From Bacteroidota bacterium (lineage in GTDB: Bacteria > Bacteroidota > Bacteroidia > Chitinophagales > Saprospiraceae): a stretch of DNA of 60,044 nucleotides. Positions 14,918 through 60,044 of the stretch are shown here, piece by piece. The notes below the pieces were generated by a model that worked only from the letters and a program-made list of their open reading frames with translations, made no database searches and had not been told where the DNA came from. The DNA lies in assembly GCA_029567325.1 (NCBI GenBank), contig JAKQLF010000267.1, positions 1-60,044 of the forward strand. Reading direction: 5' to 3'. How positions within the stretch are numbered: position 1 is the stretch's first letter; every line of letters begins with the position of its first letter. Made by a program: the position numbers and the translations under genes.

Positions 14918-14937
14918 TCAAATAAATAAAAAGTAAA

Positions 14938-16650: not shown

Positions 16651-16674
16651 TCTTAGAAATCCTGTTTAATATCT

Positions 16675-16714
16675 AAAAGAGAGGGCTGTATTTATATGGC
16701 CCTCTTTTGTTTTT
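16675..16714 (+). terminator. Intrinsic terminator behind susD
   Basis: AGAGGGC at 16679-16685 and GCCCTCT at 16699-16705 form the stem, extended by weaker pairs, and are followed by TTTGTTTTTT. The next 190 bp up to the following gene start show no further feature I can support. Confidence 0.8.
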
Positions 16715-16903
16715 TATAAAGTACAGTGATTCAATTATTTAAGATTATCCAAATTTTAAACGCGATCCAATTATATTTAACGACGTTTTGGGGTTGTTGT
16801 AATTAAATCTTGATTGATATTGATGAGAATCAGCAAAATAATCTTATAAAATCACAGCAACTTTAAGCTTAAAAATTTAGTTTAGCAGCCAATAATTACA
16901 CGC

Positions 16904-20209: not shown

Positions 20210-20228
20210 TTTTTAATAGATTTATAAA

Positions 20229-23759: not shown

Positions 23760-23807
23760 TCTCTTTCTAGACCTGCTAAAATAAATCAGTCCAACAAGAA
23801 AAACAGT

Positions 23808-38942: not shown

Positions 38943-39354
38943 CCACTGCTATTTGATGATCCACAGCAATTGCATCAGGCCAGAATTGCCTTTGCGCATC
39001 CAAGCTCCAGGGACTTTGGTCATTGATGAAAACGTAAGTTTTTTGGCGAAGAAAATGTAAGATTTAAGGCAGTTTGTAGACTTGTTTTATTCAAATAAGC
39101 AGGCTTAAATTTATTGTTCGTTAAGTGTTGCTATTAAAAGTAATAAACTATTAACGGAATATAAATACTTTAATAGTTAATGAAGAGATATTAAATCATA
39201 TGAAATAGCTAAATGGCGTATTTTGATAATATTCAATACCTTTAAATATTAATAAAAAAAATATTTATAATTTATAGGCGCATAACTTGTTTTTATTGTT
39301 TTATCTATTTAATTTTAGAAATAATTAACAAGTTCTTAACCAACTCTTTGAAAC
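38943..39354. other. 412-bp intergenic region before the giant-protein operon
   Basis: The first ~90 bp are less AT-rich than the rest, and reverse frames there read through short protein-like stretches (for example VPGAWMRKGNSGLMQLLW ending in a stop), perhaps a gene relic. The rest is very AT-rich and must contain the operon promoter; I find no strong TAnnTTTG match. No gene is supported. Confidence 0.45.
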
Positions 39355-42300
39355 GTGAAATACCCTTTTGTAATAGTCATATTATCCCTTTTTACTTCTG
39401 TGAACCTCAAAGCACAGGCTTCTATCAACCCCAGTGATGCTGTACCGATTTGTGGTCACGGATTTTATGAAATTGGATTACCTAAAACAAATTTCACAGA
39501 TATTGCTGATTTCAATTGTTTTCCTCAAGACGCAATTTTTGATCATTACGAAGTCATATTGATACAAGGCATCACCAAGGGAGGAACCATCAACATCAAC
39601 TTTATGCCCGCCGGGGAAGAAGATGTAGACTTTATAGCCTACAAGTTAGATGGAAGGAATCTTACACCTTTGCGTTGCATGGCGTCTGGAAAAACCTTTG
39701 GAAATGAAACTGCTACCTGTTTGGGAATGACAGGACTTTCTGAAGGTTCAGAGGACTTAGTGGAATTTGAAGGTTGCGATGGAGGAAATGACAATTTTGT
39801 CAAAAATCTGGATGCCGAGATTGGCGATAAATTTATCATCTTAGTAACTAACTATAAAAGTGGCAATTCCGTGCCAATGGAGATGTATGGTACAGCAGAA
39901 TTTGACATGCCAAACATCATCCTTGAGGACAGTCTAGAATTTTGCAAAGACTTTAATTTTACAATCAAATTACCAGCAAATAATAAATTCGCCTATAATT
40001 GGGAAGTTTCTCAGAATCCAGTTGATCAGTTTTCGCCCTTAAATTCCTCCTTTGGAAATAGGTTTGTCCTACCCACAAACCAAATAGGTGAAAAATATTA
40101 TAGGGTTAAGGTGAGTTTGATTGGCTCTAGTTGTAAAGAATCTACTTCTAATGTATCAGTGGTTAAAACGATTGATTGTCCGCAATGTAATGATGGGATT
40201 AAAAATGGCTCAGAAACTGACATTGATTGTGGTGGTAAGGAGTGTCCAAGTTGCACTGGTTGTGAACTGATTACCAATTTGGTGCTCAATGATACCATTG
40301 TCAATTGTGAAGGTGAGTGGACAGACACTGTGCAATTATTGGCTAATTATTGCAATGTTATTTATGAAGGAAACTTTTCGATGGAAATAAAAGGGGACGA
40401 TTGTCTGAGCGAAATTATAAAAACATGGACTTTTGAATTGCCAGACAGTATTGCAGCTGTACGCCAGGTAATTACCGTTGATAAAAAACCAGTAATTAAT
40501 AATATTAACTTAGCCGCAAACTTTCAGGTACAATGTGATTATTACATTCCATCACCTCCTGTGCTATCTTATATAAATAAATGTAGCAAGGACACTATCT
40601 ATCCGGTCTTTTCTGAAAACCTCAGAACGGGAGATAATCTTCCACCAAGATTGCTCAGAAAGTGGGTTTTCCCAACGCCTTGTGGAGATAGTCTTGTCAT
40701 TAATCAAAGTATTTTGATCTTCTATAATCAAGGTATTAAAATTCCCGCCATTCCCGGAAATATTTTACTGACTTGTGAAGATGAAACACCCTCTGCACCT
40801 AATTTGTCTGTTCAGGTTGATTGCAACACGAGCATTGCACCAAAATTTACGGAAGTATTGAGTGGAAATGGTTGTACGGAAATCATAACTCGTACGTATA
40901 CTTTTTCTTTGCCCAATGCACAAGATACCAGTTTAGCTTACACAATTACCAAGATAGACACAGTTGCTCCAATTCCAGAACTGATACCTACTAATTTGAA
41001 ATTCCTATGTTTAACTGATACCACAGATAGACCTATTATTTTAGCTAAAGACAACTGTACTCCAGGATCAATAAATCCGATTTATTCATTTAATAACAAT
41101 GGAGGATTGGGTACGGAAGAAAGCCCCTTGATTTTCAAAAGAAATTGGATTTTTAAAGATCTATGTGGTAATTCAAGTGAAGTTAGCCAAGAAATTACCG
41201 TACAGAATTCTGCTGAAATATTACTTCCTGAGGTGCCAAAAGATACGTTGGTAAGTTGTCTGTCTGAAATTCCAGATACTGCCAATTTGATTGCAGCTGC
41301 TGGATGCGGTGTCTCAATAAATGGTCAATTTTCAGAGCAGAGAATTGGCAATGCATGCGACATGACCATCATTAGGACTTGGAATTTTTCATACCTCGAC
41401 CTAAACCCAAAAACTTTAATTCAAACCATCAAAGTTCTGAATCAATTTAAACCGCAGTATGTAGTTCCGAATGATTCAACTATTGCCTGTGGAACAGATT
41501 TAAATCCTGATCTTCTTGGATACCCAAGTAATATTATAGTTGGTTGTGGTATAGGAAGAGATGTTTTTTACAAAGATGTTTTTGCAGAAAAGAGTGATTG
41601 CCCAGGAAGTGGACTGATCACCAGGTCATGGCATATTAAAGATCAATGTGGTAATGAATCAATTCAAAAGCAATTTATAACCACTCTTGATACTTCAGCT
41701 CCACAATTAATCGAACCTGTTGAAAATGTTTCTATTGCTTGTAGGGCCGATGTTCCTACGGCACCTGAACTGTTTGCTATCGATTTGTGCACAGGGGAAA
41801 AAATAAAAGGTTTATTTTCTCAAACGGATAATGGTGGTGAAGCCATCCCAAGTAATCATCTAGTAATTTCCAGAAATTGGTATTTTATAGACAAGTGTGG
41901 AAATGATCAAACAACCAGACAAACGATAACTGTCACTGGTTCGACAGACGTAACTTATCCAGAAGCTCCATCTGCATACACAGTGGCTTGTTTGGATGAG
42001 GTAGGCGCCATGGAAGACTTGGTTGCGACAAATGGTTGTGAAAATAGGGCTGAGGGTCTGAAAAACGAATTAAGAACGGGAGATTCTTGCCAAATGCAAA
42101 TTATGAGAACCTGGACATTTAGTTTTCCAGATATTCCAACAAAAACCATTTCGCAAACCATTACAATCTCAAATAAAAAAACGCCAGATTTTAAGGTACC
42201 AGATAATTTGACTATTTCTTGCGATGAAAACAGAACTTTGGAAGTTTTAGGCGAAGTTGGTGAAATTACTACCTATTGTAATATTGGTACAGAAAGCAGT

Positions 42301-45300
42301 TTTATTGATGGGCCAATCAATGAAATTTGTAAAGGAACTGGATCTTGGAATAGGATTTGGAAAGTTACAGATGTTTGTGGAAATACTGCTGTTAAAACAC
42401 AGATCATATCGATCGAGGATAAAATAGCACCAATTCCTCCGTCACCAGAAGAAGATTTGGTTTTCAATTGCAGATCTGAAATCACGAATCCTTTAGACCT
42501 AATTGCAGTGGACAATTGCTTTGAAGGTGAAATCCATGGCATGCTCACGACGATTAATAATGAAGGTTTGGGTACAATCACAAATCCATTTATTTTAAAT
42601 AGAAAATGGACATTCACTGACAATTGTGGCAACGTTTCAGAAACATTTCAAAAAGTAACAGTTTCTGACGACTCTGAAATTCAATTGCCATCACCACCCC
42701 AAAATTTTACTATCCACTGTCTTGATGAATTAGGCAAGGAAGAAACACTCATTGCATCAGATTATTGCAATGATTCCATTATTGGAATTTTTAATGAAGA
42801 AAGGATTGGTGATTTATGCAATATGACCATTATCAGAACCTGGACCTTCTCTGATTTTGACAAGGAAGTAAAAACAATAAGACAAGAAATTGCTCTAATA
42901 AATAATATTGAACCAGATTTTTTAGCTCCTGAGAATGTTGAACTTATTTGTGGAGTATATGAAAGCAATGGAATTTATGGAGAACCAACTATGATAGATG
43001 TTAATTGCAACAATAGTTTTCAAATAACCTACCAAGATGGACAATTAAATAAAATATGCGGAAATGCGGGCACAGTCATTAGGGAATGGAAAGTTTTAGA
43101 CCAATGTGCAAATGAAACTTCCAAAAGTCAAACAATTAACATAATTGATGTTAGTCCACCCATCCCTCAAAATATTCCCGAAGACCAAATTTTATCTTGT
43201 TTATCTGAATTGGAATTGCCAGTACTTCAAAATGCAATTGATGAATGCTCAGGTGAATTGATCGCAGCATCTCCACAATTTTCTGATAATGCGGGTTTAG
43301 GAATTGCAAGCAATCCTCTTATAAGAACCATAAATTGGTCTTTTACAGATGCCTGCGGAAATACAGCTATTGCAGAACAGATTATAACTGTTGCTGGAAC
43401 AACTGAAAATATTTACGATGTAGCGCCTGCACAGGTAACCGTTCAATGTGTGGGAGATATTCCACCTCCAGATGTACTCAATGGAAGGAATGCCTGCGGT
43501 ACACAAGCAAAAGTTATCTTTAATGAGTTAGAAACTGGAGACAACTGTTTCAAAATTATCACACGATCATGGACTTTCAAATTGCCTGATCAAATAGATC
43601 ATGTTGAAACACAGGTCATTACATTAAAAAATGAATTTATTCCTCAATTTGATCTTCCAGCAAATGTTTCTATTGCTTGTGAAAGTTATGACGGTAATAT
43701 TGAATTTGGAACAATGACCAATATTTCAACTGGATGTAATGCCAGTTATACTATTTCGTTTTCAGACAGCGGAGATTTTAATGCAAGCTGTAAGGATGGA
43801 ATTGAAATTCAAAGAGCTTGGACCCTAACGGATAACTGTGGAAATACGAACATGGATTTTCAAATAATTTCTTTGACTGACAACCAAGCTCCTGAGGCCC
43901 CAGATGCCGAGGCTAATTTAACTTTTAATTGTTTTGATGAAATATCCAATCCTATAGATTTGTTTGCTATTGATAATTGTGCCAATAATCCAATCCAAGG
44001 TATTTTATCAACTTCTGATGACGCAAATTATGGAACAGTTTTCAGCCCTAGAAACATATTGCGGACATGGACCTTTACAGATGCCTGTGGTATTGCTTCA
44101 ACAGCAAATCAATTAATTACAATTTCTGACAATTCAGAAATTAATCTACCTGCAAGCCCTGATGATTATACCATTAAGTGTATTGAAGACTTGTTAGGTG
44201 CTGAAACATTGTTTGCGACAGATGCTTGTAGTGATAGCATTATGGGTGATTTAGTAGTCAATGAAGTAGGTGATGATTGCAATAAAGTTATTACCAGAAC
44301 ATGGACCTTTACTAATTTGGATAAATCACCAAAAACAATTGTCCAAACGGTTACTTTGGACAATAATGAATTGCCAACATTTATTGTTCCTGAGGGATTG
44401 TCTTTGCAATGCGGTGAATATGACGAAAATACGGAATATGGAGTGCCGCGAAATGTGGAAGTTAATTGCAACAATACCTACGATATAACCTATCTGGATG
44501 TTGTGACTAATTTTGGTTGTGGTGGCACAAAAACCATATCTAGACGGTGGAAGGTGCTAGATAATTGTAGCAATGAAATGGAGCAGGAACAATTGATAGA
44601 AATAATCGATACACAGGCACCGATACCACAAAACATACCCAATGACATAACTTTTGAATGTATGTCTGATTTGACCGATTATGAAAATCAAATGGCTATT
44701 GATGATTGTACGGGAGATCAAATCATCAGTATTCCAAATATTTCACAAAATGATGGGAATGGAAACTTGGGGAATCCATTTATTCAAACGCGAACCTGGA
44801 TTTTTACAGATTCTTGTGGCAATAGTAGTGAGGCTGTCCAAACAGCGTCTGTAATTGGTACATCCGAAAATTATTATGAACCGGCTCCGAGTGACGTATT
44901 GGTATCCTGTGATTCACTTGTTGAACAAGAAGTCACACTTGTTGGGAATAATATTTGTGACGTCAATGCAACAGTTACCTTTAATGAAATTGAATCAGGA
45001 AATGATTGTGATAAGACAATAACCAGAACCTGGGATTTTGATTTACCAAATCAGACTACTCACAGAGAAATTCAAAATATAAGAATATTAAAAAATGTAC
45101 CCCCAAGCATTCAAGCTCCAGAGCCACAAACAATTGATTGTGATATATATAACTCTGCTGAGCAATATGGTGCTGATCCTATTGTTAATACATATTGCGA
45201 CTTATCATATACATTGAGCTTTAGTGATGTAGGCAATTTGAATGTTGCTTGTCTGGATGGTGTTGCAATAACAAGAACTTGGATTGCAACAGATGCTTGT

Positions 45301-48300
45301 GGTAATACAGCAACAAGTGAACAAATTCTTACATTAAAAGATGAAACAGGACCTTTGATCTCTTCGGTTGGTCCAGATGTGATTGGAAAATGTGAAAATG
45401 ATGTTCCCGATGTCAAGTTTAGTCAAATTGTCTTTACTGATAATTGTAGAAGTTCATTTTATGAATTTGATTATAGAGACTTAAAAACCAATTTAAGCCC
45501 ATATTCTACATGTGAGGACCATTTCTTATTGGAAAGAAAATATTTTGTATTTGATGCCTGTGGAAATTCTTCAAATATGATACAGAACATTTTGATCGAA
45601 GACACCGAGTATCCTGAATTTGCAGAATTTCCAGATAACGTTACCGTTTCATGTGATATACCACAAAGTACGGGTGCAGAAATTTTAGTAACGGACAATT
45701 GTCCTACATTTTCGTACGGAGGATATTCAGTGAGTGACCGATACATCACTAATACAACTTGCCTAATAGAGATAGAACGATTTTATGAAACAGCTGATAA
45801 TTGCGGAAATAGGTTGTCTCGAGTACAACTAATAACAGTAAAAGATGAAACAGGACCTTCATTTTCTGGTAGTTTATTGGATGACTCTTTTAAGTGTATT
45901 GGTGATATTCCTAGCCCGACAGAATTAGGAATTGTTGTTGAGGATGAATGTGATGAAATGGTCAATTTTACAGTAAATGAAACTTCAGAATCCTATATTT
46001 GTGATGATAAATTAACTGTAAAAAGAACATATACTTCAACAGATCAATGCAATAACACAACCACTGTTGACCAATACTTTTATATTGACAATGATATAAA
46101 ACCATCAATTATTTCAATTTTTCCAGATACATATGTTGAATTCGGAAATCCAGTTCCAGAACTAACCGAAAGTGACATAGAAGCAGCCTACGGTTGTGCA
46201 ACTCAAAACGGTTTTCCTGATCCAAAATTGGGATTAACTTTCTTTATCGATCAGGATAGCATTCCAGGAAGGTGCGATAACAATTACACAATAGAAAGGA
46301 ATATAAGTGTTACGGATGCATGTGGAAATAATTCTGAAGTTATCTACCAAATATTGGTAGATGATACCGAAGCACCTTATATTTCTAGAAGTCCAGGTGA
46401 TGTCTTAGCGGAGTGTAGTGATGACCCAAGCATTATTTATGATTTCAATCAATATACAGTTACGGATGTTGCATCTGTTTCTCACAGTTATGTAGAGCAT
46501 GTTAATTACAACAATTGTATTAATGATTTCCAGAAAACATTTACAACTACTTTTTCTGATGGTTGCAATGAAGTGACTGATGCATATAATGTAACAGTTT
46601 ATAATCCATTTCCGCCTACTATTTCTGAAATGGAAGATTTAAATTATGATTGTAAGGATTTAGTACCAATAGATAATTCTGGTGAAGTAATTGCCCAGGC
46701 ATATTGTAATACTGGTTCAGTCAATATTTACAAAAGTGGTTCAGATAATTTCTTGTATAATATATGTGAGAATAACTTTAGCTTTATCAGAACCTTTATA
46801 GCCACAGATGATTGTAACTTGTCATCTACAGTACAACAAACAATAACTGTAAATGATGATGAATCGCCAATTGCTGCGACTCCACCACCAAATCAAACAA
46901 TTTATGGTTGTGGTGATGATTATCTTGTAAATGGATTAATTCCAGATATCAATGGATATTCAGATAATTGTGGAGACGTCACCGTTACGAAATCAAAAGT
47001 TTTGAGAAGCGGTATTGGATGTGCCAGTGACCCAATGATCATAGAAAATATTTGGGAGTTTACTGATGCTTGTGGAAATACTTCTTCAGTAAGTCAAGAA
47101 TTGAGGTTTATCGACAATGTGGCTCCCGATTTCAATATTCCAGGTAACCTTACTGTATCATGTGAACATAATATGCCCGTAGAGATTATACCTTCCGCCA
47201 CAGATAATTGTTCTATTCAAAATACATCTTTTGATGAAATCAATTTGGGTGGAATTGGCAATGCTGCAAGTCCAAAAGTATTTGAAAGAATCTACACCGC
47301 AAGTGATGGTTGCAATGTCACAACAAAAAGTCAATTGATTTCAGTAATAGATGCTAATCCACCTACAATAACAAGTAACTTACCGAGTGATATTTTGCAA
47401 GAGTGTAAAACATTGCCACCTGTGCCCACTGTGACAGCTTTTGATTCTGAATCTTGTGCCCAAATTACAACAACATTTAGAGAGTTAACAAATGGAAGAA
47501 CTGGGTGTCAGGGAGACATATTAGTTGTCAACAGAATCTGGACATTTGAAGACTATGTTGGAAATAGAACAGTAGTAACCCAAACTATAAATATTGATGA
47601 TCATGAAGCACCCACTCTTATTTTCAACATTACTCCTGAACAAGATGTTCTAGTCAATAGCCCTGATTCAATACCTCGTGCAGATATTATCAGAGCAAAT
47701 TCCATTGATAATTGTGATGGCAATATATCAGTAACACTCACGCAAACAGATAATCATAAAATTGGGTGTGCATCTGACCCCAGATATATCTACAGAACTT
47801 GGACGGCTACTGACATTTGCGGTAATTTGGGCATTCATGATCAATTGGTTACTCTGATCGATGATCTGCCACCCACATTTACGGTACCACAGGATCAGGA
47901 TTTGGATTGTGATCTTGGAATCCCTCCCGTGGTTCCACTCAATCTTTTAAATGCCGTTGATAGTGCAGGTATAGCTGGTTATTCTTATAGTGATCAGTAT
48001 ATTTCTGGCAATGGTTCTAATGCACAAGATCCACTAATAAAACATCGAACTTATACAGTCACGGATAATTGCGGGAATCAAGCAGATCAAGTGCAAGAAT
48101 TGAGATACGTTGATTATAATCCGGGTACAATTTCTGGTGGTGATGGTAAATTTTGCCCTGGTTCATCAGTAACGTTATTTGCAAATGGAGGCAGCAACTA
48201 TTATTGGAGTAATGGAAGTTCCCAGACCTCAACCAATTTCCAAGCTCCCAGTAATGTTTCCTTAAATATAGTAAATCAATATGGATGTACAACTACAGCA

Positions 48301-48843: not shown

Positions 48844-51224
48844 AAAATAATAGGCATACTTATAATTTAATAATTGTATTTATTACACTAGTAATCGGTT
48901 CCCTGAACGCTTCCCCATGGCCAAAATGCCCATCCCTCTCCTCAGACCCAATCTTCATTGTTGCTGAGGACTCTTTGACTATTTTCTTGCCTGGCTGGAA
49001 TGCTGTCACAGATTTTGAATACACTGCTTATGGCAATTCTGGTATCTTAAGACGAACCAGACAACAAGGAAATTTATTGCAATTCTCCAATGAGGACGCA
49101 TTAATTGGTGTCATGCAACAAATTGAGTTCAAGCGATTGTGTGATGGTGTAGTTTCACGGAGGTCTACCACTCCTGTAAAAGCAAATCCAGAAATTAGGA
49201 AGGTCGGTGGATACGTTAAAAAATATGGTACTTGTACCTATGTAAAATCTTTGTTGGGAGGTAAGGGCTTCCAACTTTCTGAATGGCACGGAAATGACAG
49301 AAGTCCAGCATTAATTCATGAAAGTCCTATGTTGAGGGCACAATTTACAGCCAGCTTTTATACAAATATTGGGGAATTGTACATTTCATCAAAAGAAGAA
49401 CCCAATGTATTATATGTATTAGAAGAAAACGCCCTTGCGCTCGAAGGATTTCCCGATTTTGAAGACGCCAATAATTTATTGTCTGTGAAATCCATTTCAA
49501 AAAAAGATCCAACTTGTGATAAAGAATCAGGTGTAGTTTCATTAGAATTTGATCCGAAAGTCAAACAACAATTGTACTTCAGCATTAACAACGGAGGCCA
49601 ATGGTACCCAGAACCAATTTTTTCAAATTTAGCACCAGGAAGATATCGCATTTTAGTAAGAGCAGGGCTAGAATCTTGTGTGTATGCAATTTCAGATACT
49701 TTTAATATTGGTGACAAAGATGTTATGGACGTATCAAAAATATCGGTCGAAAAGGAAACCAGTTGCGGATCTTTAGGAAGTATTAGTATATCAATTAACA
49801 GACCTGAAACAAAGACCTTTATTCTCAATGAAACAATTGTTTCCAACACTCCATTTTTTGAAAATTTAACTACTGGTGTTTATGATTTGAAAATAGTATT
49901 TACTGAAGGTGGCAATTGTAGCGCTTTCCAACAATCTGTTGAAGTTGGTTATGAAAGCATTTTGAGTGACAATGACATAACTGTCAAAGACGCCACCAAT
50001 TGCAATGGTTCTGATGGAGAAATACAGATAAGTTCTAAAGGAAATCTAGAATTTTCAATTGATCATGGGGAAACATGGAAAGCAACACCAACTTTCAAAG
50101 GCCTTAAAGCTGGCGCTTACTTGTTGAGAATCAGAACAAAAGACAAACTTTGTAATCAATCAACTGAAGTAAATGTAAATGCAAGAAGCATAAGACAATC
50201 GGATGGGATTAAAATTTCTGGGACAAATCCAATTTGTTTTGGTGCCAATGATGGAGTGTTGATTCTGACAGAAGATGCTAAAACCCCTGTGTCCCATTAC
50301 ATCTGGCACGAAATATTTCATCCAGATCGTAATTGGTCAACAGTTTTGCCTATTTTAAACAATGTTACCGCTGGAAAATATGAAGTAAAGATTTTTACAT
50401 CACCAGTTTGTTATGAAACAAGAACTATAACACTCAAAAATCCAACAAAAGTTTCTATCAACAATCCACTTGATGTCGAAATTGCATACATCTGTCAAGG
50501 TTCTCAAATTTTGGCTGAAATGAATGCAAACAAAGACCTCGTCTTTGAATGGTACAATAACAATAAATACATAACCACTGGAAATAATGCCTATCTCGGC
50601 CTCAACGGAAAATATTCGGTTGTTGGCATCAATAACGTAGGTTGTAAAGACACCACAGGTTTCGAAATTCGATACAACAATGAAGTTTTTAAACCTGATT
50701 TTCTTTTACCCAGTGTTGGCTTAGTCAATGATACAATCATAGGAGTAGATGTAACATTGGTAAGCCCCGACAGCATCACTTGGATTTTCCCCAATGAAGC
50801 GGATATTCTTTCTTCCAATTTTGGACAACTGGTCATGAGTTTTGCAAGTTTAGGTAATTTTTCCGTCACCATGGAGGCTTATAAAGATGGATGTAAAAGT
50901 GTCATCGAAAAAGGAATTAAGATCACAGATGATCCATCTTTGGTTGATAAAGATGAGCAAAGGTCAAGCAAGGCTTTCAGAAGTTTTAAGGTTTATCCCA
51001 ATCCCAATGACGGTCAATTCACCATTGACTATGAATTGAATGAAGCCTTCGAAACCAGAATTTTAATTTTTGATCACCTTGGAAACAATATTTTTTCAAA
51101 AAGTATTCCCAATACGATAGGTCATAAAGAAGAGATAGCCCTACAATCGGTGCCTCCTGGAATTTACATTGTTTTGGTCAATACCAGCAGTGAAGTGCAA
51201 ACTGCAAGTGTCATCATCCAATAA
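48840..51224 (+). CDS. SprB-repeat-like surface protein with type IX secretion sorting domain
   Basis: I start it at 48840, the ATG overlapping the preceding stop (ATGA), which opens a signal peptide (MKNNRHTYNLIIVFITLVIGSLNA-S) and gives 794 residues; the in-frame start at 48789 only adds a tail inside the upstream gene. About residues 200-510 contain four SprB-like repeats: C-x-G-x-G-x-I, FSIDHG-type middle, LKAGAY or LAPGRY turn, then a closing cysteine. An Ig/PKD-like pair follows (FEWYNNNKYITTG; ITWIFPNEADIL). The last ~85 residues are a T9SS type A domain: FKVYPNPNDGQFTIDYEL ... PPGIYIVLV. It is thus exported by the Por machinery and attached to or released from the surface. Confidence 0.88.
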   Translation: MKNNRHTYNLIIVFITLVIGSLNASPWPKCPSLSSDPIFIVAEDSLTIFLPGWNAVTDFEYTAYGNSGILRRTRQQGNLLQFSNEDALIGVMQQIEFKRLCDGVVSRRSTTPVKANPEIRKVGGYVKKYGTCTYVKSLLGGKGFQLSEWHGNDRSPALIHESPMLRAQFTASFYTNIGELYISSKEEPNVLYVLEENALALEGFPDFEDANNLLSVKSISKKDPTCDKESGVVSLEFDPKVKQQLYFSINNGGQWYPEPIFSNLAPGRYRILVRAGLESCVYAISDTFNIGDKDVMDVSKISVEKETSCGSLGSISISINRPETKTFILNETIVSNTPFFENLTTGVYDLKIVFTEGGNCSAFQQSVEVGYESILSDNDITVKDATNCNGSDGEIQISSKGNLEFSIDHGETWKATPTFKGLKAGAYLLRIRTKDKLCNQSTEVNVNARSIRQSDGIKISGTNPICFGANDGVLILTEDAKTPVSHYIWHEIFHPDRNWSTVLPILNNVTAGKYEVKIFTSPVCYETRTITLKNPTKVSINNPLDVEIAYICQGSQILAEMNANKDLVFEWYNNNKYITTGNNAYLGLNGKYSVVGINNVGCKDTTGFEIRYNNEVFKPDFLLPSVGLVNDTIIGVDVTLVSPDSITWIFPNEADILSSNFGQLVMSFASLGNFSVTMEAYKDGCKSVIEKGIKITDDPSLVDKDEQRSSKAFRSFKVYPNPNDGQFTIDYELNEAFETRILIFDHLGNNIFSKSIPNTIGHKEEIALQSVPPGIYIVLVNTSSEVQTASVIIQ

Positions 51225-51235
51225 AGTATAGGCAG

Positions 51236-52981
51236 ATGAAGACAACCACAAAATTTGGCTTAAGACTTTTTGCAATACTAATCTGTTTTTGTTTAAACCC
51301 AGACTTCGCCATTACTCAAGACATTAGCGAACAAGCCAAACAACTCAACGAACGTTTAAATAAAGATCCTTTTAAAATTGGAGGTGGCATTCAATTAGGT
51401 GCAGCAGGAGTCCTCAGTAATTTGGATGTTGCTAGAGCAATTCCTTTTTCTGCACGAGGTCATGCTTCACTGAATTTGGACTTTATGGGAGTGAAAGCTC
51501 CATTTTCACTCACCTACAGTACAGGTGGAAAAGCTTTCAATTATTCCTTGCCGTCCTATGCATTTGCTGGAATAAGCCCCAGTTACAAATGGGTAAAACT
51601 ACATCTCGGTGATCGTTCTATGGGGCTTGGAAGATATGTCTATAGTGGACAATCATTCCGAGGAGCTGGTATCGAACTTTCACCCAACAACTGGAAAGTA
51701 GCTTCTTTTTACGGACGCATCAGGCGTACAACAGCACAAAATATCAACAGTTTTCAACGAATTGACCCATTATACAAACGAATGGGATACGGACTCGCCG
51801 CAGGTTTTGACAACAAAGTAGATAAGTTAATGGTGTCTGTGTTACATGGAATGGATGATTTAAATTCTTTGCCTGTAGTGGACAGCACTTTACTTTTCAA
51901 TCCCGCCAGCAATACCGTTTGGAGTGTACAAGGAAATAAAAAACTCACTGACAAATTGAGTGTTGGTCTCGAGTGGGCAAAAAGTGCATTCACAGAAAAT
52001 AGCAAAGATGCACTAGCAAGATCTGCTTCCTTTTTTGAATCTATGGGTGGTCTGGAAAAAATAAACCAATCAACTCGATGGGGTACTGCTTTCAATGCAT
52101 TTGTAAAACTAAATATCGCCAAAACCAATCTGGAGGTTAATTATGAAAAAGTATCTCCCGGATTTAAAACCATGGGCGCTTTATACTTCCGAAATGATTA
52201 TGAAAACATCAATGCTGGTCTGAAATTTCCAGCCCTGAGTAAAAAACTACTCACCAATTTGAAAATCGGAGTGGAGCGCAATAATCTCAAAAACACCAAT
52301 GCCAATGAATACAGTCGATTTGTATTCAACCTCAATTCGCAATATCGACTCAATTCGAAAACAGATTTTGGCCTCAATGCTTCTACCTTCAACAATACCA
52401 TCGTACAAAGTACACCACTTTCGATATCCAATCCGCTGGAAGTCAATCAATTGTTGTCGACCAATGCCAATTATGGTGCTTATGCCAATTACCAAATTCA
52501 ACAAAATGAACAATATGTGTCTGTGGTTTCTGTGCAATTGGGTCGGAGCTCAGGTTATACGGTCATCAACGATGAAATACAAAATGACAAGGTGAGCTCC
52601 AATAGTATTTTCGTAAACTACAACAAGCAAAACATCAAAAACAATGCACAACAAGGTTTGCAAATTTCATACATCCAAAATGGCATGATGCAAAGCACTT
52701 TTAACACTGTCTCATTAGCTGCAAATCTTGCGCGACCATTCCTCAATAAAAAATCTACCTTCAACATCACTTTAGGAGGCGGACTCAATATGCAGAAAGA
52801 AAATGGCCTTTCAAAAAATGTTCCTTACACACAAAGTTCAGTGGGTTTTAATTTTCAAATAGATCAAAAAACCGCATTGAGTTTCAACAATATGTTGTAC
52901 AAAAACTTTGGCGATAAAGCCATCCCGATGGGTGATTTGACAGAACTCAGGAGCTTCCTTTCCTTTAATTTTAGAATTTAA
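51236..52981 (+). CDS. Outer-membrane beta-barrel protein of the TANFOR-associated cluster
   Basis: A 581-residue exported protein; the signal peptide ends near residue 28 (DFAITQ). The mature start DISEQAKQLNERLNKDPFKIGGGIQLG leads into a chain of amphipathic strands. The first third holds NLDFMGVKAPFSLTYSTGG, ISPSYKWVKLHLGDRSMGLG, YSGQSFRGAGIELSPNNWK and YKRMGYGLAAGFD, and the chain ends LRSFLSFNFRI with a barrel-type aromatic end. I recall this first-third pattern (P-F-x-x-S-Y, PSYKW...HLG, GxxFxGxGxEL) from unnamed barrels of other Bacteroidota found beside FN3/TANFOR genes. It is probably the outer-membrane anchor or pore of the operon. It starts 11 bp after the CTD gene. Confidence 0.75.
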   Translation: MKTTTKFGLRLFAILICFCLNPDFAITQDISEQAKQLNERLNKDPFKIGGGIQLGAAGVLSNLDVARAIPFSARGHASLNLDFMGVKAPFSLTYSTGGKAFNYSLPSYAFAGISPSYKWVKLHLGDRSMGLGRYVYSGQSFRGAGIELSPNNWKVASFYGRIRRTTAQNINSFQRIDPLYKRMGYGLAAGFDNKVDKLMVSVLHGMDDLNSLPVVDSTLLFNPASNTVWSVQGNKKLTDKLSVGLEWAKSAFTENSKDALARSASFFESMGGLEKINQSTRWGTAFNAFVKLNIAKTNLEVNYEKVSPGFKTMGALYFRNDYENINAGLKFPALSKKLLTNLKIGVERNNLKNTNANEYSRFVFNLNSQYRLNSKTDFGLNASTFNNTIVQSTPLSISNPLEVNQLLSTNANYGAYANYQIQQNEQYVSVVSVQLGRSSGYTVINDEIQNDKVSSNSIFVNYNKQNIKNNAQQGLQISYIQNGMMQSTFNTVSLAANLARPFLNKKSTFNITLGGGLNMQKENGLSKNVPYTQSSVGFNFQIDQKTALSFNNMLYKNFGDKAIPMGDLTELRSFLSFNFRI

Positions 52982-52986
52982 TCCCT

Positions 52987-55900
52987 ATGAAAAACATACC
53001 GCGATTCATCATTTTCTTTTTAGCGTTTACCATTTCTGTAAGGGCCTCTGATATAAATCCTGCCGATAGTTTACACTTACAACAAACAATTACTGCTGCG
53101 GCCTCAGATTTTTCTGCTTTAGAATTTTCCCAATTGGAAAATTACATCAACGATTACATCAAGGATAATGTAGATCTGAAAAGTTTACCATTGCCTGTTG
53201 AAGGAAATGATCAATTATTTGCAGAGGGAAAGGCCAAAGAAGTTGCTTACGAAGGAAATCCGCAAGTGCAAAAAGTTAATAAACTCTATGATCAAATCAT
53301 CGTCCAGGGAAAATTATTGGAGAAGTTGTCGGGAGAACTTCCAATTGAATTACCGGTGGGTATAAATTTGGGCGGGAAAGCAAGTGGTGGTTCTTCATCC
53401 ACCAAAATGGTTTTGATCATCAATCGCGTGAAATTTTTACCCAGTTATGCAAGTCTGGAAGCTTACTTCGGAGTGGAACTCAAAGATGGACGTAAGTTAT
53501 TTTTTGGAACTGATGATTTGCGCTACAATTCAGCAGGTTTTGTAGGTGTGAATCGATTGGTACTTTTTGAAAGTTTCCCCATGTTTCAAAAATCAAAACA
53601 CATCTTGTTGACGCTCAACTCAGGAAAAGGCCAGAGTGGGAGGGGGAGTTATGTGGAATTTGACTGTGAAGGTTTTAGAGCAGTGCGGATTGATGCAACT
53701 TTAGAGCTTTCTCGGGATTGGGTAATTCCTTGTTCTATTGATGGCACAGCGATGGCGAGTGGTCGAGTCATGGCTAATTTTGCAATTGATGTTGCTGACT
53801 TGGATGATTTTGTTTTGGATATTTCATTGCCATTTTTTACTCCGACCAAAGCAAAAGAAAAAGTAGTCTTCAATCTTGAACATGCAGTTTTTGATCACAG
53901 CGACACCAGAAATGCAGCGGGTTTTACCCCAAGACGTGGTTATACACCATCATCAGGTTCAGGTGGTGGAGCGAATGAAATCCCTTCGTCAGAACCAAGT
54001 GCAAATAGTCAGCTAAATGAACGCGCCATTGTTGAATCTGATCAAAACGGAGAATCAGGATCGGAGGAAGAAGACCAAGATACTGAAGGTTTAGAAAACC
54101 TTTGGCGAGGCATATTCATCAAAGAATTAAAAATTATTTTACCAAAAGCTTTCAAAAGAAATGAAGGAGAGCGAATAAGTGCTGCTGCTAATGATTTGTA
54201 TATTGATAATGGTGGAGTTACTGGTAATTTTTCAATGGGAAATCTCATCGCTTATGAAAGTGGCAAAATGCAGAAATGGAAATTTTCTGTTGATAAACTA
54301 AGTTTTGCACTTTATTGCAACATACCCATCAGTTTTAGTTTTGACGGCAGAATTGCCATGCCCATTACATCAGACAGCACGCCATTAAAATATGCTGGAA
54401 AAGGAAACCTGGAGTTGAATGTCTATAATTTTACGGTTTCACCGACGGCAGCTCTTGAATTTCCACTTTGGCGTACAACCAGCGTTTCCTTAAATCCTGC
54501 ATCCTATCTCAAAGTTCAGGCTGCAAATGATCAGTTCAATGGTGAAGCGGTATTGCATGGTTATATGGGAGTCAACGCAGGAAAAGCAAATGAGAAAGAC
54601 ACCGCTACAGCAAAATTGACCTCAGATAAAGTAACATTTGCGGGCATTACCATCCTTACCGTTGCGCCGTACCTTGGATTGGCAGATGGTGGGTTTATTC
54701 GCTTTGATGAAGGAAATAAAGACGGCAATAATGCTTTGGGAGTTAATTCTGCAACACTGTCTAAAAAAGCCGACGAACCCAATAAAATATATCTGGGTTT
54801 GGATTTGGAACTTTCATTTACTGAAGCTGATGATGGAGGGAGTAAAGTCTCTGGATCTTTTGCTATTGTGGCGAGAATGGAAGAGCAAAATGGTTTACAG
54901 CGCTGGGTTTATGACGGTGTGAAGATTTCTGCCATCTGTGTCACCATGGATTTTGGCAATGCTGGTCGCATCAGTGGATGCCTGGAACGTTATTCAGGTG
55001 ATGCCGAGTACGGTGATGGTTATGCCGGAAATCTAGACGGTGGATTTATGAAGGATGGCGGGTCTTATAAATTGGTGGTACAGGCGGGTTTCAAAGCGGG
55101 GACTAAAACAGAAGGTGACGCAAAAATAAAATATTGGTTTTTCAGCGGATACTTAGGACTCAAATCGGTTTCTATTCCAATCATACCCGGAGTTTTGAAT
55201 GTCAATGGTTTTGGCGGGGGTATGTATTATCATATGCGCATGGAAGATGAAACAAAATTGACAGATTTAATGGCCCAACCGGCAGATACACCACCCACTT
55301 TCAAATATGTGGTTGATAAGAGCACAACCTTTGGATTCAAAGCAAGTTTGGGATTAGCTGGTTCTAATGAAATTTTTGTTGCCAATGTGACCTTACAAAT
55401 GGAATTTAGTGGTAAAGCATTGCAAAAGGTGTTCATTGCTGGTAAAGGGAAATTTATCAGCAGAGGCAATGAATCCAATCAAGCAGCATCAATTCGAGCA
55501 GACGTTTTATTGAAGTTTAATTTTGAAAAGGGTTTTACAATGCATGGTGCTTTTGCGGTGACCATCGATGTTAAAAATGTTTTGAATGGTTCTGGTCAGG
55601 TTGATATTTTATCAAACCATGGTACTTGGCATTTATACATTGGTGGGTACAGTGATAATTCTATCAAAACGTCTGAAGGCTTTATGCGGCCTGTTTCAGC
55701 AAATATCACTTTTTCTTCGGGCATCAGTGTTTCTGCAAATATGTATTTCCTTACGGGGAATGATATTCCAGGTCCTCCACCACTCAATGCACAAGCTGCT
55801 GCATATTTTGGTGTAAGCCAAACACAAACTCGGAAAAATGAAGGTCAAATAGTTTCTGGAACTGGTTTTGCCTTTGGAGCGTCAGCTTTCTTCAATACGT

Positions 55901-56253
55901 CTGCGGTAAAGGAAGAATGTAAATACGTAAACTTCACAGTTTCTGCTGGTTTTGACTTCAGTTTATTGAAATATGGTGATGCCGCAAGGTGTAGTAATAC
56001 TCCAAGCAATACTGCGATGGGCATCAATAGTTGGCGTGCGACCGGCAATCTTTATGCTTATTGCCTCTTTGGAGGTAAATGGAAAATTTTATGGCGATGT
56101 AAAAATTTACCAAGTTTTAATGCTGGTCTATTGTTAATGGCCGATGTCCCGAATCCTGGGTATTTTTTGGCGAGGGTCAAATTTTCTATCCTTGGAATCA
56201 AAGTAGATGTAAAAGGACAAGTGGGTACTGAATGTGGAAACATCATCAACTAA
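52987..56253 (+). CDS. Large exported protein of unknown function
   Basis: A 1088-residue protein with a signal peptide (MKNIPRFIIFFLAFTISVRA-S). The N-terminal part has an amphipathic helix region (about 40-90), then a beta-rich part starting KMVLIINRVKFLPSYASLEAYFGVELKDGRKLFFG near 142. An acidic, serine-rich linker (about 310-370) precedes KELKIILPKAFKR, and long beta-rich sections follow with many glycines (FGGGMYYHMRME; YGDGYAGNLDGGFMKDGGSY). Cysteines cluster near the end (EECKYV, AARCSN, YCLFGGKW, RCKNLPS, VGTECG). I do not recognise a named domain. The alternating-strand pattern and final length fit a periplasmic or surface beta-solenoid. It is 5 bp behind the barrel gene and 6 bp before the FN3 gene, so it belongs to the same unit. 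Confidence 0.75.
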   Translation: MKNIPRFIIFFLAFTISVRASDINPADSLHLQQTITAAASDFSALEFSQLENYINDYIKDNVDLKSLPLPVEGNDQLFAEGKAKEVAYEGNPQVQKVNKLYDQIIVQGKLLEKLSGELPIELPVGINLGGKASGGSSSTKMVLIINRVKFLPSYASLEAYFGVELKDGRKLFFGTDDLRYNSAGFVGVNRLVLFESFPMFQKSKHILLTLNSGKGQSGRGSYVEFDCEGFRAVRIDATLELSRDWVIPCSIDGTAMASGRVMANFAIDVADLDDFVLDISLPFFTPTKAKEKVVFNLEHAVFDHSDTRNAAGFTPRRGYTPSSGSGGGANEIPSSEPSANSQLNERAIVESDQNGESGSEEEDQDTEGLENLWRGIFIKELKIILPKAFKRNEGERISAAANDLYIDNGGVTGNFSMGNLIAYESGKMQKWKFSVDKLSFALYCNIPISFSFDGRIAMPITSDSTPLKYAGKGNLELNVYNFTVSPTAALEFPLWRTTSVSLNPASYLKVQAANDQFNGEAVLHGYMGVNAGKANEKDTATAKLTSDKVTFAGITILTVAPYLGLADGGFIRFDEGNKDGNNALGVNSATLSKKADEPNKIYLGLDLELSFTEADDGGSKVSGSFAIVARMEEQNGLQRWVYDGVKISAICVTMDFGNAGRISGCLERYSGDAEYGDGYAGNLDGGFMKDGGSYKLVVQAGFKAGTKTEGDAKIKYWFFSGYLGLKSVSIPIIPGVLNVNGFGGGMYYHMRMEDETKLTDLMAQPADTPPTFKYVVDKSTTFGFKASLGLAGSNEIFVANVTLQMEFSGKALQKVFIAGKGKFISRGNESNQAASIRADVLLKFNFEKGFTMHGAFAVTIDVKNVLNGSGQVDILSNHGTWHLYIGGYSDNSIKTSEGFMRPVSANITFSSGISVSANMYFLTGNDIPGPPPLNAQAAAYFGVSQTQTRKNEGQIVSGTGFAFGASAFFNTSAVKEECKYVNFTVSAGFDFSLLKYGDAARCSNTPSNTAMGINSWRATGNLYAYCLFGGKWKILWRCKNLPSFNAGLLLMADVPNPGYFLARVKFSILGIKVDVKGQVGTECGNIIN

Positions 56254-56259
56254 AGAGCA

Positions 56260-58338
56260 ATGAAAACGGTAAAATTATTCAAGAAAGGTTGTTTTCTCAA
56301 TGAGAGATGTGAAACTTTAAGAACTCTTCTTTTTGTTTTAATAGTTTTGGTTTTTATGCAATTAGGCTACAGCCAAAAGCCAATCATTCATCATAAAATT
56401 CAGAGTGATTCTTTGTTGATTAGATTCGACCCGGGCTCAGCGAATGTGTGGTTGCCCACGATTAATAATGGTCTTCGGTTTGTGGTTAAGCAGGGGACTA
56501 ATGTGCTTTTAGATGAAGTGAAAACTCCTGTTGATAATTCCTATATTTCATTACACGAAAGTGAAACCGAGTCAGACTTTTTAATGGTAGCGGGTTTAAT
56601 CAGGATTGAAGCAGTACCAAAGCCAATTTTAGAATCCACTTTCCCCGTGGCAGAATACACTCAAGTTGAAAGGGACATTGCACGTTTTGATATTTTGCAA
56701 TATACTTTAAATAAGAATTATGACCTGACCCAGTTTGCTGGTTTAGGAACCATTTTCAAAGGATTTGATCAAAACAAAATTTATACCATTGAAGTCTATT
56801 TACCAGGATCAACGCAACCAATTATTACCAAATCGATAGATAGAACCAACATGGTTCAAGCTTCAAGTCCACCAATGAAAGTAGATTGGCAAAACAAAGC
56901 AGCTAACATTTCTTGGGAAACAAAAACTTCAAAACCTACTTTTTATGGATATATTTTAACGGAACAAATAGGTATTAGTAGTGAGTTGTCTTTATCTGAA
57001 GAACCATTTGTAAACTTACTCGATACTGCTGTAAATGAAAACTTGCATTCGCTTGCTATTTTTCAAGAATTAATCAGTAATGATACTACTTATACTTTTT
57101 CATTGTATGGTTTGGATTATTTTGGTGGAAAGTCGCCAAAGCCATTTGTTGTGAAAGGGCAGGGTAGGGAAGGCATTGGCCTTTCACCACTGATTACAAA
57201 ATATGAAACCTTGACAACCAATGAGGTCGATCTGGAATGGATGGTCTTACCGAAATTTGAAAAATATATAACTTCTTGGAGGATTTATAGTTCCGAAAAC
57301 TATGCTGGTCCATACAATTTACTGACCTCAGATTTGCCTAAATCAACCAGATCTGCTAAAGAAAAAATAAAAAACAGTTCTAATTTCTTTAGAGTGGTTG
57401 CCTTAGATGACCAGGGACAAGAGGTACCATCTTTACCACAATTGGTCATGTCTTTTGATACCATTCCGCCAGCTCCACCCACCAATCTCAAATCAGAAAT
57501 TTTTGATTCGAATATGGTGAGCATCACTTGGGATAGAAATAGGGAAAAGGATTTGTATGGTTACAAGGTTTTCTATACAATTGACACTTTAAGTGAGTGG
57601 TTTTTAGCCCATGACACCTTTCTCACTGCTCCAATTTTTATTGATTCTCTTGCTTTGTCCTCTGGTTATAATGAGATTTATTTCAAAGTACTTGCCTCAG
57701 ATCAGAGGAATAATTTATCTGATTTTTCTGCAATGTTGACTGTAAAAATGCCAGACATTTTGAGGCCATTTCCACCTATTTTTTCCAATCACATTCCAGA
57801 TGCAGGAAAAGTCACTTTGTATTGGATTCCGAGCCCCAGTGAAGATGTGGTCAAAATTGATTTGCTCAGATCTCCCGATTTAAAGGCAGGAAATTGGTCT
57901 TTAGTAAAATCCTTTACTCCTCAGACATTTGGTACATCTTATGTGGATTCGAACTTGGTGTCAGAAATTACCTATGCTTATACTTTGATAGCCTATGATG
58001 AAGTGAATTTAAAGTCAGAACCGAGTCCTCCCTTAGCCATCAATGTTTTACCTAAACAATACAATTTAGATCCCAATGATTTTAAATTGGAGCTGTCTGG
58101 CCAAAAAGTGAAAATAGTTCCCCAGTTTGCTGACCCCAATATTTACCAAATATGGGTTTACAAAAAGGTTGATAAGCGACCACCGAGCTTGCATCAAATC
58201 CTTGATCCTTCCAGAAATCAGACTTTTGCAGAAGATGATTTACCTTCTGAAAATGAAAAGGTTTTTTACTTTTTGCAAGTAATTTTTGAAGACGGAAGTC
58301 AAACAGATTATAGTAAGAGAAAATCTATCAGTAAATGA
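56260..58338 (+). CDS. Exported fibronectin type III repeat protein
   Basis: A 692-residue protein. The N-terminus carries an unusually long n-region before the hydrophobic segment (TLLFVLIVLVFMQLGYS-Q, about 23-40). The mature part begins with a short domain IHHKIQSDSLLIRFDPGSANVW, then FN3-like domains. These can be recognised from the strand pairs VDLEWMVLPKFEKYITSWRIYSS (about 326), PPAPPTNLKSEIFDSNMVSITWD (about 405) with LYGYKVFYTID, and PFPPIFSNHIPDAGKVTLYWIPSPSEDVVKIDLLRS (about 504). It ends without a sorting domain or membrane anchor. FN3 modules mediate protein or glycan contacts; here it is probably a periplasmic or surface partner of the TANFOR protein, whose ATG overlaps its stop. 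Confidence 0.82.
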   Translation: MKTVKLFKKGCFLNERCETLRTLLFVLIVLVFMQLGYSQKPIIHHKIQSDSLLIRFDPGSANVWLPTINNGLRFVVKQGTNVLLDEVKTPVDNSYISLHESETESDFLMVAGLIRIEAVPKPILESTFPVAEYTQVERDIARFDILQYTLNKNYDLTQFAGLGTIFKGFDQNKIYTIEVYLPGSTQPIITKSIDRTNMVQASSPPMKVDWQNKAANISWETKTSKPTFYGYILTEQIGISSELSLSEEPFVNLLDTAVNENLHSLAIFQELISNDTTYTFSLYGLDYFGGKSPKPFVVKGQGREGIGLSPLITKYETLTTNEVDLEWMVLPKFEKYITSWRIYSSENYAGPYNLLTSDLPKSTRSAKEKIKNSSNFFRVVALDDQGQEVPSLPQLVMSFDTIPPAPPTNLKSEIFDSNMVSITWDRNREKDLYGYKVFYTIDTLSEWFLAHDTFLTAPIFIDSLALSSGYNEIYFKVLASDQRNNLSDFSAMLTVKMPDILRPFPPIFSNHIPDAGKVTLYWIPSPSEDVVKIDLLRSPDLKAGNWSLVKSFTPQTFGTSYVDSNLVSEITYAYTLIAYDEVNLKSEPSPPLAINVLPKQYNLDPNDFKLELSGQKVKIVPQFADPNIYQIWVYKKVDKRPPSLHQILDPSRNQTFAEDDLPSENEKVFYFLQVIFEDGSQTDYSKRKSISK

Positions 58339-60044
58339 TGGGAATGGCTAGGATCATATTATTGATGCTGATAGGAATGTTTATTTCTGGTCAAAACTTG
58401 ATCGCCCAAGCCCTCTACCCCGTCACCGCCATCCTAGACGTTCAAGGACCTTACAGCCCAGTTTTCAGCACTTTTTCTGATCCCACCAACCAAGCTTTCA
58501 GGCCTAACAAAATGGCTTTGCGTCTGCGCCTCAATGACCTCAACGAAGCCAGTTTGGCCGTTCGGCTCAAATGGGAGATTTCCGGGCCGGGCATCGAATT
58601 CCAAACCAACGATGACTTTTTGGGTGGCATTGCAAACCTCATTTCTGGTCAATACATTACGCTCGATAATGCTGCACTGACTCCCTATTTTGACCTCTTT
58701 GGCAGCAGCGGCATCAGTGATGAATTTGTGACAGGCACCGGTGGTTATTTACCTGAGGGCAGTTATAGCTTTTGCGTCACTGCATTCGAACTAACCAAAG
58801 GTCAACAAGTCAGCAATACGACATGCCGCGAAATTTACATCGAAGAATACGAGCCTCCTTTTCTCAACAATCCATCGGGGCCAATTACACCAACTTTTCC
58901 TCAAAACCTGCAGATTTCCTGGACTCCCAGACACTTCGGCGTTTTCCCAGTCATCTATAATGTGAAAATTTGGGAAACTCTTGAGGGCCTGACTCCTGAT
59001 CAGGTCGTTTCTTCTCAAATGCCCTATATCACATTGGATGTCAATCAGGTGACCCAAACCTTTCTCAATTCCCAAAATGGTATGCTTACGCCAGGTAGAT
59101 CTTATTTAGCTCAAGTTCAAATTCGAGATGGAGTGAACGGACCATTTGGTATGCCATCTGTCATTTTCAAAAACAATGGCAACAGCGAAGTTTTGGCCTT
59201 TACTTATGGAGAAGATGATCCAGAAGGAGTTTGCACCGCCCCTTTGGATTTCAAGTCTGAGTTGGATGACCAACAAAACGTCGTACTTTTTTGGCAAGAA
59301 TCAGACCCGACTTTGGCTCCTACAGTTGGTCGAATCACTCAGGTCGCCTATCAGATCAAGTATCGGGAAGTTGGTGCTACAGAATGGCAGATCAAGGAAA
59401 CAAGTGTCCGGACTCTGCTCATGACAGGCCTCCGCCAAGGTGAAACCTACGAAATCGAATTGTACAAAGTTTGTATCAATGGGCTTACACCGGGAGGCGC
59501 TCTCAAAGTATTGGTCCCCAAAAGAAATAAGGCCAGAACACTGCCTGACTGTGGTGAAGAAATGGATATTTCGGGAATGAGCGAAGTGCCCCTTGAAAGA
59601 TTGGCGGTCAATGACACGATTTTTGCTTCGGGAACAGAGGTCATCGTGCAAGAAGTAGCTGGTTCGGGAGGTGTTTTCACGGGTAAAGGTTTTATCAGAT
59701 TACCTCTGCTTAGTACCATCAAAATAGCTGTAGAATTTGATGCCATCTCCGTCAACGAAGACTTCGAACTTACCGCCGGAGAAATCAGAACGGTCTACAA
59801 TCCTCTGGCCGGCAATGTCGCCAACATCAACTTTGGCAGCGACAATCTCACAGATTTTCCTACTCTTGAATATCAGGACAGTTTCAAAATCATTTCACTG
59901 ACAGCCGATGGCACCTTGATTTATCTGGATGGTAGAGAGGTTTTGGTCAATGGTGCTTATATAAAAGGCAAAGGACTCAATCAATTTGTCTTCAGCGGCG
60001 AACGATTTGAAGTTTTTGAAGAATATGAAAAATTTGATTCTTTG
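58335..60044 (+). CDS. TANFOR-domain exported protein (partial, runs off the window)
   Basis: The ATG at 58335 overlaps the upstream TGA by four bases, and the frame stays open for 570 codons to the window end. The signal peptide ends near residue 25 (QNLIA-Q). ALYPVTAILDVQGPYSPVFS, then LRLRLNDLNEASLAVRLKWEISG, GGIANLISGQYITLDNAALTPYF, LPEGSYSFCVTAFELTKGQQ, and the proline stretch EPPFLNNPSG match the TANFOR (Tannerella-type) domain pattern. FN3-like domains follow (about 185-310 and 320-410: YQIKYREVGATEWQIKETSV, LRQGETYEIELYKVC), then a beta-rich part with GTEVIVQEVAGSGGVFTGKG. TANFOR proteins are long secreted Bacteroidota proteins of unknown role. The C-terminus is not visible. Confidence 0.82.
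   Translation, partial: MMGMARIILLMLIGMFISGQNLIAQALYPVTAILDVQGPYSPVFSTFSDPTNQAFRPNKMALRLRLNDLNEASLAVRLKWEISGPGIEFQTNDDFLGGIANLISGQYITLDNAALTPYFDLFGSSGISDEFVTGTGGYLPEGSYSFCVTAFELTKGQQVSNTTCREIYIEEYEPPFLNNPSGPITPTFPQNLQISWTPRHFGVFPVIYNVKIWETLEGLTPDQVVSSQMPYITLDVNQVTQTFLNSQNGMLTPGRSYLAQVQIRDGVNGPFGMPSVIFKNNGNSEVLAFTYGEDDPEGVCTAPLDFKSELDDQQNVVLFWQESDPTLAPTVGRITQVAYQIKYREVGATEWQIKETSVRTLLMTGLRQGETYEIELYKVCINGLTPGGALKVLVPKRNKARTLPDCGEEMDISGMSEVPLERLAVNDTIFASGTEVIVQEVAGSGGVFTGKGFIRLPLLSTIKIAVEFDAISVNEDFELTAGEIRTVYNPLAGNVANINFGSDNLTDFPTLEYQDSFKIISLTADGTLIYLDGREVLVNGAYIKGKGLNQFVFSGERFEVFEEYEKFDSL

Follow-up and report, generated by a model that had tools for sequence, protein, structure and literature searches.

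A conserved gene set for a predicted outer-membrane barrel, D1088 and an FN3-type protein accompanies TANFOR proteins in Bacteroidota and may present toxins at the cell surface

Results

A six-gene operon for predicted exported proteins

The stretch of DNA analysed here (the window) is the complete 60,044-bp contig C278 (JAKQLF010000267.1) of a 5.8-Mb Saprospiraceae metagenome-assembled genome (MAG; G000, assembly GCA_029567325.1; estimated contamination 4.93%), in which open reading frame (ORF) calling revealed six ORFs on the plus strand, running from position 39355 to the contig end. The last four encode a predicted outer-membrane barrel, a protein of 1088 amino acids (aa; hereafter D1088), an FN3-type protein and a TANFOR protein, and it is the association of these four across Bacteroidota that is the subject of this study. 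A previous sequence-only reading had placed a translationally coupled operon with signal-peptide-bearing products at this location, and the layout that it described was confirmed: the genes overlap at ATGA sequences at 48840 and 58335, the other junctions are gaps of 11, 5 and 6 bp, and the N-termini of all six products resemble Sec signal peptides (judged by eye from the translations).

The first gene (39355–48843, plus strand like the others, with a GTG start) encodes a 3162-aa protein in which the Pfam family HYR_4C (PF23237) was matched in 14 stretches (E 4e-86), in agreement with the HYR-like character attributed to it earlier. The second (48840–51224, with an ATG at 48840 giving 794 aa and a longest frame that opens at 48789) encodes a type A cargo of the type IX secretion system (T9SS), with matches to Por_Secre_tail (PF18962, 4.3e-13) and TIGR04183 (2.4e-11). 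As anticipated, this was the only window protein in which Pfam and NCBIfam recognised a T9SS sorting domain; the HYR, barrel, D1088 and FN3-type proteins gave no such match, and the C-terminus of the TANFOR protein lies beyond the contig end. Its earlier designation as SprB-like had to be dropped, since the SprB repeat family is not among its Pfam matches, and neither an SprB nor a PorP/SprF family appeared among the Pfam/NCBIfam matches of the six proteins at E ≤ 0.1. SprA, the sole T9SS gene searched for, is present in the genome in two pieces.

The third gene (51236–52981) encodes a 581-aa protein that is predicted to be a large outer-membrane beta-barrel, as had been proposed. Its AlphaFold model (pLDDT 87.0, pTM 0.78) contains 26 predicted strands that are 8 residues or longer, with an estimated ~24 strands in one barrel, and Foldseek ranked large outer-membrane barrels first, with ushers among the top matches (TM-score 0.35–0.49, root-mean-square deviation >8) alongside numerous other large barrels. 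The family has no Pfam or NCBIfam model, and no sequence relatives of it or of the D1088 family were found in the PDB at E ≤ 1.

D1088 itself, the product of the fourth gene (52987–56253), had no match in Pfam or NCBIfam at E 0.1. Its AlphaFold model was moderate (pLDDT 75.2, pTM 0.47) and antiparallel all-beta, and no confident fold match was obtained. Foldseek matches in the PDB (LptD, SlpA and ApoB, at a query TM-score of 0.09–0.22) and to viral models were too weak to name the fold, kinship with the barrel was not detectable (hhalign probability 0.4), and strand amphipathicity did not distinguish between a membrane-embedded and a soluble beta protein.

For the last two genes, the names given earlier stood in part. 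The 692-aa product of the fifth (56260–58338) matched fn3 at E 0.035 only, below the Pfam cut-off, but belongs to a specific conserved FN3-type family as defined by its own profile. In the case of the sixth (58335–60044; 570 aa, open at the contig end), TIGR02542 (TANFOR) did not match the window protein at E ≤ 1, but did match 8 of the 13 rows of its family alignment (best 5.7e-8), two relatives scoring 23.9 and 33 bits, below the 67-bit cut-off; the 570-aa protein also contains an fn3 match (1.5e-7, Pfam). Since the window is a whole contig, it is the assembly that truncates this gene. On contig C178 of the same genome, another TANFOR copy (88% identity over 1.6 kb of DNA and 90% at the protein level) breaks off at the same point, and both contigs end in one identical 141-bp run, for which an assembler word size of 141 is the probable reason. 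A genome search for the continuation of the window gene returned only this second, likewise cut, copy. No barrel, D1088 or FN3 gene was found in the first 20,000 of the 20,025 bases of C178, and two further modules were found in the genome (on C145 and C330). The incomplete orphan gene on C178 starts at 18268 (L164, 16207–20000) and adjoins two minus-strand genes, which we take to resemble an AbiE-type pair.

The stretch 39242–39364 on the plus strand, which precedes the first gene and extends past its start codon (39355), had a single other match in the genome, located directly upstream of this orphan TANFOR gene (C178:18160–18284; 73% identity over 126 columns). This sequence conservation points to a probable control region of the operon, and control may be common to the C178 TANFOR gene. 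No copy was seen 5′ of the HYR gene of the related genome G005 (L033) or in the sequence fetched from C145 and C330 (L047, L048 and L078). Terminator-like sites in 38900–58800 were at chance level (14 observed vs. 13.6 expected), as were sigma-70-like promoters, and a Bacteroidota promoter motif gave 9 matches vs. 4.9 expected, with 0 in 38943–39354.

The barrel, D1088 and FN3 families travel with TANFOR proteins

The occurrence of the families was assessed in 296 evenly drawn Bacteroidota genomes and in a set of 60 relatives (both including the window's own genome), with profile thresholds of E ≤ 1e-10 for the barrel and D1088 and E ≤ 1e-20 for FN3. Family counts are lower bounds, as the genome scans scored one to four candidates per genome, and the D1088 scan of the 296 genomes missed the copy on C145 of G000. 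The barrel was found in at least 83, D1088 in at least 33 and the FN3 family in at least 75 of the 296 genomes, and D1088 relatives were found in at least 20 of the 60. All 33 D1088 genomes encoded both the barrel and FN3 families, which lay within 25 kb of D1088 in 32 and 33 genomes, respectively (with two pieces of G278 merged and short C-terminal fragments in G072, G112 and G307 excluded; genome-level co-location probabilities ignore the relatedness of the genomes). The only genome without a nearby barrel was G153, where D1088 is located at a contig edge. Among barrel genomes, 53 of 83 had the barrel and FN3 genes at most 25 kb apart.

At the level of loci, a TANFOR gene was also present in 52 of the 62 with barrel and FN3 genes, and lay between the two in 41. 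This count and the D1088 tree below exclude L093–L095 (duplicates of L033, L076 and L077), while the duplicates L038/L113, L044/L117 and L091/L145 were kept in the tree, extension, identity and co-location counts; the barrel of L053 was missed by the ORF caller. The recurring order was a barrel of ~575 aa, a protein with N-terminal TANFOR and D1088, an FN3 protein of ~700 aa and sometimes an SprB-like protein. Where D1088 was weak or absent, TANFOR proteins of ~1350–4150 aa adjoined the barrel and FN3 genes (L054–L057, L059–L061, L082–L085, L089, L090 and L092). In families other than that of the window, TANFOR proteins of ~3900–4150 aa with little or no D1088 similarity were seen between barrel and FN3 (L054, L055, L056, L057, L082, L083, L084, L089 and L090).

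These data strongly support the conclusion that the barrel, D1088 and FN3 families travel with TANFOR proteins across Bacteroidota as a conserved module, as the sequence-only reading had proposed for barrel, FN3 and TANFOR neighbours; the lack of repeated co-occurrence by which that reading could have been overturned was not observed. Chance or selfish clustering of unrelated surface genes without joint function is contradicted for these four by their co-location in diverse families and by domain fusions (see below), and as an explanation of the whole operon we consider it extremely improbable. It might apply to the HYR gene: apart from the window, G005 was the only genome to show the HYR and 794-aa genes in precisely this order, a 1774-aa relative of the HYR protein occupying the same position there together with a relative of the 794-aa protein.

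TANFOR is fused to D1088 and to the barrel

Of 79 distinct D1088 proteins, 34 have TANFOR and D1088 in a single chain (fusion counts being made on the distinct proteins, 79 of 85); in the window, Portibacter and Flavobacterium the two are separate genes. Moreover, TANFOR was found N-terminal to the barrel within one ORF in L070 (5009–7720, 903 aa) and L075 (1509–4352, 947 aa), and small TANFOR proteins adjoin the barrel in L046 and L087. Further barrel matches sit in frames of 800–950 aa and may be alike to the L070 and L075 fusions. Because of the fusions to D1088 and the barrel, and of the small TANFOR proteins next to the barrel, TANFOR is more readily seen as serving docking or assembly within the module than as a toxin-specific domain. 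In 68 of 71 cases, the extension behind D1088 belonged to a single conserved family, and the idea that D1088 proteins themselves end as polymorphic toxins was rejected on this ground.

The fusions also bear on the route by which the TANFOR protein leaves the cell. In the hypothesis of Jana et al. (PMC7073777), TANFOR proteins are exported by the T9SS; applied to the window, D1088 and FN3 might follow the same route, and the barrel would be only a PorP-like surface anchor. According to that paper, more than 95% of TANFOR genomes have a T9SS and genes for T9SS cargo are enriched around TANFOR genes, and the abstract of PMC9143113 proposes PorP-like proteins as anchors of type B cargo. The T9SS cargo gene directly 5′ of the barrel gene in the window and G005, as well as the SprA in the window's genome, are in line with such export. 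However, the 794-aa protein is the only one of the six with a recognised sorting domain, no PorP/SprF family is among the Pfam/NCBIfam matches of the barrel, and TANFOR is joined to the barrel in two genomes. We regard T9SS export as a serious possibility, yet not as the probable one. That the barrel, D1088 and FN3 proteins would instead be a dedicated outer-membrane machine, apart from the T9SS, for the export or display of TANFOR giants across Bacteroidota, with TANFOR as the docking part and toxins as one cargo class, we consider unlikely.

Toxin ends in relatives of the module

According to PMC7073777, TANFOR proteins are polymorphic toxins with variable C-terminal toxin ends and immunity genes, and a TANFOR-BaCT DNase of Flavobacterium hydatis DSM 2063 and its immunity protein have been tested; PMC11796102 lists the TANFOR domain as a trafficking marker. 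We fetched 29 Flavobacterium-type loci (L126–L154) via the barrel with 10-kb flanks. D1088 follows the barrel in all 29, a 447-aa gene precedes it in 28 (in L146 its product is a PKD protein whose start resembles that of a lipoprotein), and the upstream flank of 16 contains a TANFOR gene with small variable genes behind it. The 11 complete TANFOR proteins shared 86% identity (median; range 76–98) over residues 31–280 and 22% (12–33) over their last 120 residues, while D1088 (84%) and the barrel (74%) were constant in the same loci. A Pfam nuclease was found at the end of 4 of 11 Flavobacterium TANFOR proteins scanned (AHH in L127, L136 and L144; Endonuclea_NS_2 in L147). Among the downstream genes, Imm11 scored over the cut-off in L127 and L144 and under it in Portibacter lacus, with no match in the other 5 genes scanned. 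L146, which derives from the very strain of the tested BaCT toxin, carries this locus, and its ExK motif at residue ~1719 by alignment (vs. E1724 in PMC7073777) fits, but does not prove, that its TANFOR protein is this toxin. In F. johnsoniae CI04, a partial gene upstream of variable cassettes (L130:1–2898) contains a HELGH motif by eye and perhaps has a metallopeptidase toxin end. The module, described earlier as lacking a known function, does have a known connection, given TANFOR proteins that are polymorphic toxins and the barrel and D1088 genes beside them in these 16 loci, with toxin domains in 4 of 11.

In a quick, midpoint-rooted D1088 tree (82 rows), the window fell into a six-row clade (support 100) together with G005, G018, one MAG and two Portibacter loci, in every row of which D1088 is a short separate gene; this clade is sister to Flavobacteriaceae (support 98). 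The nearest named relative in the module is contig L093 (Saprospiraceae). Both P. lacus and P. marinus have the window's order of barrel, D1088, FN3 and TANFOR, and the TANFOR protein of P. lacus (2198 aa, L156:1767–8363) ends in an AHH nuclease (PF14412, 2.4e-11), the next gene showing a weak Imm11 likeness (7.8e-4, below the cut-off). Because a same-order member of this clade ends in AHH and the clade is sister to Flavobacteriaceae, a toxin end is predicted for the window as well.

The window operon is best explained as a TANFOR surface module of polymorphic-toxin type, a reading that we hold to be somewhat probable. The products may thus form a surface apparatus that presents the TANFOR protein and, judging from its relatives, is probably toxin-armed in the window, and the module at large is best seen as a surface apparatus armed in some lineages. 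Several observations weigh against such arming. The C-terminus of the window TANFOR protein is not in the assembly, and an immunity gene downstream would likewise lie past the end of the contig; 7 of the 11 scanned Flavobacterium TANFOR ends matched no Pfam family over the cut-off, and no Pfam toxin domain was found in the TANFOR C-termini of L077, L140, L142, L150 and L151. Despite the same gene order, neither the TANFOR protein of P. marinus (1915 aa) nor the genes downstream of it matched a Pfam toxin or immunity family, and the 1169-aa and 345-aa proteins beside the TANFOR gene of G018 matched no toxin family. Of 50 D1088 proteins encoded by separate genes, 25 had no TANFOR gene on the stretch that was fetched, partly because this stretch was short; several Saprospiraceae loci (L037, L038, L040, L042, L043, L109 and L111) carry D1088 with no TANFOR on that stretch, and many Saprospiraceae loci miss a recognisable toxin. 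Finally, because of the conserved extension after D1088, the fused TANFOR–D1088 proteins look unarmed and do not appear to be polymorphic toxins in the usual sense.

The operon might alternatively encode a toxin-free adhesin or matrix assembly, i.e., an adhesive coat to which toxins were added in some lineages but not in this one. The HYR, FN3 and immunoglobulin-like repeats, the non-variable extension behind D1088, the Saprospiraceae loci without recognisable toxin and the ~4000-aa TANFOR giants without known toxin domain (the C-terminal 668 aa of that in L057 gave no Pfam match) all agree with a coat. Nevertheless, the D1088 clade of the window is sister to the toxin-bearing Flavobacteriaceae and includes P. 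lacus with its AHH nuclease, and the window itself has the separate-TANFOR layout, so that we judge a toxin-free coat rather doubtful here.

Other genes in the window

Upstream of the operon, positions 35565–38942 encode a 1125-aa polymorphic-outer-membrane-repeat/choice-of-anchor Q protein, which is kept at the same place in G005 (41% identity). Further upstream (11705–25187), a SusC-like TonB receptor, SusD, FG-GAP/ASPIC proteins (one scanned; its 1176-aa neighbour matched the same relative by blastp) and a GH1 glycosidase are encoded.

Discussion

In the proposed armed apparatus, the products would cross the inner membrane by Sec, after which the barrel in the outer membrane would anchor a TANFOR/D1088 complex or pass it outward. 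The D1088 and FN3 proteins would make up the exposed body of this complex, docked by the TANFOR domain, and adhesion would come from the T9SS-sorted 794-aa protein together with the HYR protein. The TANFOR protein would bear an exchangeable C-terminal warhead, as predicted for the window from its relatives. Such an assembly could act as a fibre or a secretion apparatus.

TANFOR toxins themselves are already known; what is new here is that TANFOR loci share a backbone of barrel, D1088 and FN3 proteins without Pfam or NCBIfam models. A literature search found no description of the barrel or D1088 at TANFOR loci, though neither family has a searchable name and subscription papers were mostly outside its coverage. 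On the strength of their gene neighbourhoods, these so far undescribed partner proteins may export or display toxins. As of 2020, export of TANFOR toxins by the T9SS was a hypothesis still to be tested (PMC7073777). The barrel and its two companion families, being fused or linked to TANFOR, provide named genes for a simple genetic test of toxin export in Flavobacterium. They also suggest a possible role for giant exported proteins in many Bacteroidota genera.

Among known systems, chaperone-usher barrels (PapC, FimD) likewise are large outer-membrane barrels and held the best Foldseek ranks, but with TM-scores of about 0.35–0.44 and 10% identity to the window barrel; no usher, chaperone or pilin family was matched in the six proteins (Pfam, NCBIfam), and the likeness is one of fold only. 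In the SprB/SprF gliding adhesin pair of the T9SS, the cargo gene adjoins an outer-membrane barrel gene, as it does in the window, where the cargo, however, has a type A instead of a type B sorting domain and neither an SprB nor a PorP/SprF family is matched. Two-partner secretion by CdiB-CdiA combines a barrel with a giant exoprotein that has an exchangeable C-terminal toxin and an immunity protein. The window module would work alike in pairing a barrel with a toxin-ended giant exoprotein; it differs by its extra D1088 and FN3 components, and no POTRA, TPS or haemagglutinin-activity family was matched in its six proteins (Pfam, NCBIfam).

The closest comparison is with the TANFOR polymorphic toxins as described in the accessible text of PMC7073777, in which the words "barrel" and "porin" do not occur and neither D1088 nor the barrel is described. 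Like them, the window protein has an apparent N-terminal TANFOR domain, to judge from its family alignment, an apparent signal peptide and Fn3/PKD and T9SS-cargo neighbours, and relatives of the window show the same variable C-terminal toxins and immunity genes. In contrast to those toxins, many members of the present module look toxin-free, and here TANFOR is set on a conserved barrel/D1088 backbone, in which it often forms one protein with D1088 and in two cases with the barrel.

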